A stretch of DNA of 64,000 bases from Calditrichota bacterium (lineage in GTDB: Bacteria; CLD3). This document shows positions 3,406 through 36,562 of this stretch, piece after piece. The position numbers and the translations under genes are program-made. Position 1 is the first letter of the stretch. Each line of letters opens with the position of its first letter. The stretch is from NCBI GenBank assembly GCA_008501735.1, contig QQUF01000016.1, forward strand, positions 62,001-126,000, given 5' to 3'. The notes under the pieces were generated by a model. It had not been told where the DNA came from, did no database searches, and saw only the letters and a program-made list of their open reading frames with translations.

Positions 3406-3475
3406 TTGAGAAACCGACTGAAAGTCGGAGTCTCAACACACACTGTGAGTTTCTGACTAACAGTCAGGCTCTCAC
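3406..3475. repeat. REP-like hairpin pair, locus A
   Basis: Two 31-nt hairpins (3406-3436 and 3445-3475) lie 8 nt apart between convergent genes. Each has a 5-bp outer stem (TTGAG/CTCAA; GTGAG/CTCAC), a 3-by-3 internal loop, a 6-bp inner stem (CCGACT/AGTCGG; CTGACT/AGTCAG) and a 3-nt loop. The same architecture recurs at 36494-36562 and 42379-42452. Confidence 0.8.
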
Positions 3476-36493: not shown

Positions 36494-36562
36494 GTGAGAG
36501 CCTTAAAAGTCAGAATCTCACAAATATTTTACTGAGTTTCCGACTCTTAGTCGGGCTCTCAG
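36494..36562. repeat. REP-like hairpin pair, locus B
   Basis: Copy 1 (36494-36521) is inverted and lacks 3 bases of the inner stem. Copy 2 (36532-36562) has outer stem CTGAG/CTCAG and inner stem CCGACT/AGTCGG. It lies between convergent genes, so it may also act as a bidirectional terminator. Confidence 0.8.

Follow-up and report, generated by a model that had tools for sequence, protein, structure and literature searches.

The paired hairpins of this stretch of DNA belong to a new family of REP elements that has its own RAYT gene, a well-supported assignment that places them within an already recognized class of miniature mobile elements. They are very probably REPINs that have been moved in trans by the resident RAYT through recognition of a mismatched double stem. 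The analysis establishes the repeat family with its fold and covariation, the pairing of unlike subtypes, the fixed T beside the elements, the location of a RAYT gene with intact HUH and Y motifs in a cluster of the elements, and the same association in a second genome.

Six hairpins at three loci

The window analysed here is a stretch of 64 kb (C50:62001-126000) in a genome of 4.14 Mb and 59 contigs. Direct reading confirmed the six copies, paired at three loci, that had been proposed from the letters alone, five of them of 31 nt and one of 28 nt, with T-A, G-C and C-G closing pairs as claimed. At the first locus, copy A1 (3406..3436, minus strand; also matched by the pattern), with a T-A closing pair and the inner stem CCGACT/AGTCGG, and copy A2 (3445..3475, plus strand), with a G-C closing pair and CTGACT/AGTCAG, are both G-type and form an inverted pair with a spacer of 8 nt between convergent genes. 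The second locus also lies between convergent genes and holds the decayed 28-nt copy B1 (36494..36521, minus strand), which has lost most of its inner stem, inverted with respect to B2 (36532..36562, plus strand; C-G closing pair, CCGACT/AGTCGG) across a spacer of 10 nt. The third inverted pair lies 11 nt past the stop codon of the upstream gene and consists of C1 (42379..42409, plus strand), a C-type copy with a C-G closing pair and CTCACT/AGTGAG, and C2 (42422..42452, minus strand), with a G-C closing pair and one inner mismatch (CTCACT opposite AGTCAG), separated by 12 nt.

Within the window the consensus pattern picks out the five 31-nt copies and no other site, against 0.00 matches in 100 shuffles, and B1 is still recovered by the covariance model. 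As single-stranded DNA the intact copies tested fold into the double stem at -6.8 to -9.8 kcal/mol, while B1 reaches only -2.5 kcal/mol. No Rfam family matched the hairpins at the gathering score. The sequence-only reading had stated that both strands of the stems change together. Not every copy is compensated, because C2 carries a mismatch and B1 has lost most of the inner stem. The 3-by-3 internal loop that it described is predicted by folding in some copies and a 2-by-2 loop in others, and the GCT that it took for a flank is in fact the 3' side of that loop.

A dispersed repeat family

Copies were gathered from the whole genome by pattern searches and by covariance-model searches. The genome pattern, which left the closing pair, the loops and one inner pair free, found 54 copies at no more than two mismatches, and the reversed control pattern found 0. 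The covariance model, built from 48 distinct copies, located 62 distinct sites in 36 clusters of the host genome, and 20 of these clusters hold at least two copies. This search had been suggested together with the original description, for which few copies and no covariation would have been the unfavourable outcome; what was found is 54-62 copies with two-sided changes at 5 of the 11 stem pairs. The copies are intergenic save one pair within a gene of contig C44 that we take, from reading its protein sequence, to be ispG. A 31-nt imperfect palindrome in 54-62 dispersed and mostly intergenic copies has the properties of a REP element. Matches at L021:1579 and L044:5243 were dropped as chance matches with four mismatches. 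On contigs labelled viral only four exact copies were present, on two contigs.

Some copies are part of larger repeats. Tandem arrays at L023:3000-3174 and L020:5363-5485 contain, respectively, a REP pair with a period of 99 nt and three single REPs with a period of 46 nt. Repeated units of about 2.35 kb on contigs C9 and C37 (L039 and L041) carry one REP copy each at the same place, and adjoin large ORFs of about 730-750 aa.

Fold, covariation and subfamilies

Each unit consists of an outer stem of 5 bp, an internal loop of ATT or TGT opposite GCT, an inner stem of 6 bp and a loop of 3 nt. A T follows immediately 3' of the element in 52 of 54 copies (p 1e-23), and the 5' side is mostly TT. 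The elements are therefore not canonical GTAG REPs, given that the 5' flank has the consensus TT and the GT[AG]G foot is absent; the GTGAG found inside the stem is paired and is not an unpaired foot.

In the 48 distinct copies pairing is intact in 97.5% of the pair cells, compared with 87.1% after shuffling, and the changes on both sides at 5/11 stem pairs amount to 58 cells, compared with 23 shuffled. When the partner is slid by 1-3 columns, pairing falls to 15-45%. Given that the collecting pattern favours paired ends, a search was also made with only the 3' arm fixed. It gave 27 matches, of which 25 are true copies, and, counted by eye, pair 10:22 is intact in 25/25 of these and pair 11:21 in 23. 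In an Ignavibacteria genome that carries the same repeats (G060, see below), leaving the inner positions free revealed further two-sided states, namely CTCAAT/ATTGAG, CTCATT/AATGAG and CTGACT/AGTCAG.

The copies fall into two subfamilies, a C-type with a C..G closing pair and a CTCACT stem, and a G-type with a G..C closing pair and a CNGACT stem. Closing pair and inner type go together almost without exception (C-G with C 20 times, G-C with G 18 times, crossed 2 times; Fisher p 5e-9), so that a large share of the covariation seen at pairs 1 and 11 goes back to one ancestral split. Additional events are the T-A closing pairs, which are found in both types, and the two-sided changes at pairs 3, 10 and 13. 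Together with the new states in the second genome, pairs 3, 10 and 13 show that pairing has been kept repeatedly.

The claim of strong evidence for selection on the folded form was too strong as worded. That pairing is repeatedly kept stands, but the subfamily split reduces the number of events, and template switching within a palindrome can copy a change from one arm to the other without selection. The two-sided changes may thus come from template-switch repair of quasi-palindromes, leaving a selfish repeat whose symmetry corrects itself, and we regard this as a possibility of some weight, though not the likelier one. The arms change together while the two sides of the internal loop (ATT versus GCT) stay different, and the process is favoured because each arm is itself an inverted repeat, with 4/5 pairs in most copies. 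Against it, unpaired variants are rare among the copies, and a defined bound structure is expected if the RAYT recognizes the hairpin, as it does in E. coli (PMC8266576). Template switching is compatible with an origin as RAYT-mobilized REPINs and limits the selection claim alone.

Inverted pairs and position relative to genes

Fourteen of the 15 close inverted pairs in the genome join a G-type to a C-type copy (p 2e-4). The likeness to BIMEs that the sequence-only reading had noted is therefore apt, and close inverted pairing as in REPINs and BIMEs is a property of the family. Spacer length differs between the two arrangements (6-12 nt against 12-22 nt).

The gene context of the clusters, assigned by an ORF-based heuristic, is tandem for 20, convergent for 10, divergent for 2 and unassigned for one, and one of the "divergent" clusters (L033) actually lies inside ispG. 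Where the flanking genes are in tandem, 17 of 19 clusters lie closer to the stop codon of the upstream gene (median distance 9 nt) than to the start of the following one (41 nt). This position, the stability of the RNA form, which also folds as a double stem, at -14 to -16 kcal/mol, and a T-run of at least 4 on the GCT side of 9/54 copies (2.9% of control places) would suit intrinsic terminators or stabilizers of mRNA 3' ends that are under selection gene by gene and resemble each other through shared function only. Such an origin is nonetheless improbable. Most copies have no T-tract, a terminator consensus scan calls none of the copies in the window, and one pair lies within ispG. Identity beyond the stems (the GCT and the flanking T), hetero-pairs, tandem arrays and a cluster around a RAYT gene would also be unexpected of terminators. 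A side effect of the hairpins on mRNA ends is possible.

The pair in ispG (C44:187869-187943; L033:4870-4944) occupies exactly 75 nt, that is, 25 codons in frame, and the repeat is absent from all three of the orthologues compared, those of G001 (71% identical), G006 and G002. The linker that holds the pair differs in the orthologues and is variable in all relatives. Given that it is 17 residues longer than that of G001, and not 25, this is not a clean empty site. The element is likewise absent beside the G001 orthologues of the genes next to pairs B and C; these loci were rejected as clean empty sites for B and C, since other neighbours differ too.

The RAYT gene within the repeats

It had been suggested that a RAYT gene be sought, and one is present and surrounded by the repeats. 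The genome carries two Y1_Tnp genes. RAYT-1 (C52:116462-117010, minus strand) is a 549-bp gene that encodes an HUH/Y1 protein of 182 aa, and five REP copies flank it on both sides (C52:116384, 116422, 117038, 117115 and 117154, corresponding to L024:5385, 5423, 6039, 6116 and 6155), none of them more than about 180 nt from the ends of the gene, which is the arrangement of a REPtron. The motifs THFH (HUH), YIHQNP and FSSF are intact, and the protein matches Pfam Y1_Tnp above the cut-off and NCBIfam REP_Tyr_transpos at 64 bits, under the 80-bit cut-off. Together with its length, the motifs and these two family matches identify it as a RAYT. A search of solved structures by the RAYT-1 sequence returned none.

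The second gene, RAYT-2 (C44), is 55% identical to RAYT-1. It was rejected as the source of the 31-nt family, as it is flanked by its own unrelated structured repeat of 85 nt (GTGCGTTTTGCC..GGCGAAACGCAC), which stands on both sides of it (L016:1155-1250 and 1904-1999; C44:152156-152240 and 152905-152988) and gives about nine matches genome-wide. RAYT-1 and RAYT-2 group as sisters in a tree of 83 relatives, within a clade of 13 rows that includes sequences of Ignavibacteriota, Bacteroidota and Kapaibacterium.

Short, palindromic, dispersed and intergenic repeats are a general feature of MITEs, and the elements could be read as MITE-like relics of a DDE-type insertion sequence that lie near the RAYT gene by chance, with copies in a genome that has no detectable Y1 gene (G001, see below) as a further point for that reading. 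We consider this very unlikely: five of the 54-62 copies flank a single 549-bp gene in a genome of 4.14 Mb, the association with a RAYT recurs in an independent Ignavibacteria genome, and neither a terminal repeat nor a target duplication is apparent, the flanks being T-rich on both sides and not duplicated.

The same repeats and related hairpins in other genomes

The independent genome is the Ignavibacteria MAG G060, whose RAYT (locus L113) is 48% identical to RAYT-1 and belongs to the same 13-row clade. Seven near-identical double stems lie within 350 bp at this gene, and the genome contains about 147 copies, some of them overlapping. Two (L196/L197, C1:55897-55945) overlap by 11 nt, because their outer and inner stem words are identical (GTGAG/CTCAC) and allow alternative folds. 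An AlphaFold model of the L113 RAYT (pLDDT 95.5), a homologue and not RAYT-1 itself, has 4ER8 as its best match (E 2e-8, TM 0.64/0.69, 16% identity), the structure of a complex between the E. coli RAYT and a REP hairpin. In the order to which G060 belongs, matches occurred in 3/99 genomes, namely G060 and, more weakly, G097 and G119.

In G001, which represents the sister genus, the covariance model locates 34 sites grouped into 25 clusters. No Y1 gene was detectable there, and the stretches between neighbouring copies show no obvious RAYT frame in the translations as read, so that the copies either persist without a RAYT or the gene falls in an assembly gap. The REP pairs at loci L045 and L050 of this genome are embedded in longer repeats of the GCGGGGTTTACGCT.. 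type. In 58 other genomes the covariance model found one match only, which is borderline.

Beyond this family, recurring hairpins stand beside 29/86 RAYT loci, compared with 3/73 control regions. Many are 33-nt palindromes with a stem of 15 bp whose arms are themselves inverted repeats; in the 15-bp palindromes the arms, picked by hand, self-pair at 4.7/6 positions versus 1.6 when shuffled. Palindromes with self-paired arms were found in Bacteroidota, Chloroflexota and Cyanobacteriota. Recurring 33-nt palindromes flank RAYT relatives of Cyanobacteria and Chloroflexota at L102, L107, L115, L120, L138 and L150. Some of the RAYT relatives with recurring palindromes carry the motif YIHLNP, which resembles that of subclass 2.1; for that subclass, PMC6006769 reports no REP-like structures.

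The layout of the 31-nt element, 5/6-3-6-3-6-3-5/6, is that of the 33-nt palindromes, but with the centre triplets unpaired, and one hypothesis is that these hairpins share it by descent. A more tentative proposal, which we consider less likely than not, is that the repeats of RAYTs lacking a GTAG guide follow a single plan in different phyla, namely a palindrome made up of palindromes with about 6-3-6 nt per arm, a 3-nt tip and each arm an inverted repeat. The present family would then be the form with mismatched centre triplets, and the RAYT would read a four-fold half-site in the fold rather than a guide tetranucleotide.

Comparison with known systems

The REP/BIME system of E. coli with its TnpAREP (RAYT group 2, subclass 2.2) is alike in its imperfect palindrome with a mismatched mid-stem, in two subtypes that form inverted pairs behind genes, and in a single RAYT gene amid the copies. 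The elements described here differ in having no GTAG foot, another sequence and a 3x3 instead of a 2x2 mismatch, and their RAYT is only distantly related (16% identity for the homologue model against 4ER8). In the REPINs of Pseudomonas fluorescens SBW25 (PMC3116915), from which the concept comes, inverted REP doublets are likewise the apparent unit and are associated with a RAYT; here the spacers are shorter (6-22 nt), each REP is a full double-stem hairpin and singlets are common (at least two copies in 20/36 clusters). TIRYTs and TIRtrons (PMC3733652) share a Y1 gene flanked by self-complementary repeats that have no GTAG and form genomic families, whereas the motif GGGGWSAS is absent here and a protein of 182 aa leaves no room for the long extension at the C-terminus that characterizes subclass 2.1.

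For TnpAREP subclass 2.6 (RAYT group 5), found mostly in Bacteroidetes, Quentin et al. (PMC6006769) give 'atypical secondary structures' and no GT[AG]G. The features stated there, YIH[QN]NP, an SS motif, about 180 aa, the lack of GT[AG]G, and structures both next to the gene and at other places of the genome, agree with those found here, while its motifs NH[LIV]H and WQ differ from the THFH and FQ of RAYT-1, in which the hydrophobic residue of the HUH motif is F and not L/I/V. Compared by description, the elements accord with the loosely described 'atypical' REPs of this subclass.

Proposed mechanism and significance

Each 31-nt unit is a REP element, a single-strand hairpin followed by the fixed T. 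If the family consists of REPINs mobilized by RAYT-1, the working unit would be an inverted pair of unlike subtypes, a REPIN or BIME of about 70-80 nt. By analogy with E. coli, RAYT-1 may bind the folded strand when it is exposed as single-stranded DNA and recognize the mismatched double stem. Its tyrosine would cut beside the hairpin, next to the flanking T, and the hetero-pair would be moved or copied elsewhere in the genome, most often to places shortly after a stop codon. Binding, cleavage and mobilization in trans, like any influence on the ends of mRNAs, are what we infer. Several points weigh against mobility by a RAYT. G001 has 34 sites and no detectable Y1 gene, and the elements lack a GTAG guide, the 5' motif on which cleavage of canonical REPs depends (PMC8266576). 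No event of excision or insertion was observed, the G001 loci that correspond to pairs B and C are not clean empty sites, and the ispG linker varies in all relatives. The E. coli enzyme needs the mid-stem mismatch to be unpaired, while the letters of the mismatch do not matter (PMC8266576).

The pair in frame within ispG indicates that such repeats can add protein sequence. With this family, REPs that do not carry GTAG gain a clear anatomy, comprising a mismatched double stem, two naturally occurring subtypes that join in hetero-pairs, and a fixed T on the 3' side. Comparisons can now draw on two independent genomes, each with its RAYT, and the recognition by a RAYT of a repeat without a guide motif becomes directly testable with short oligonucleotides.
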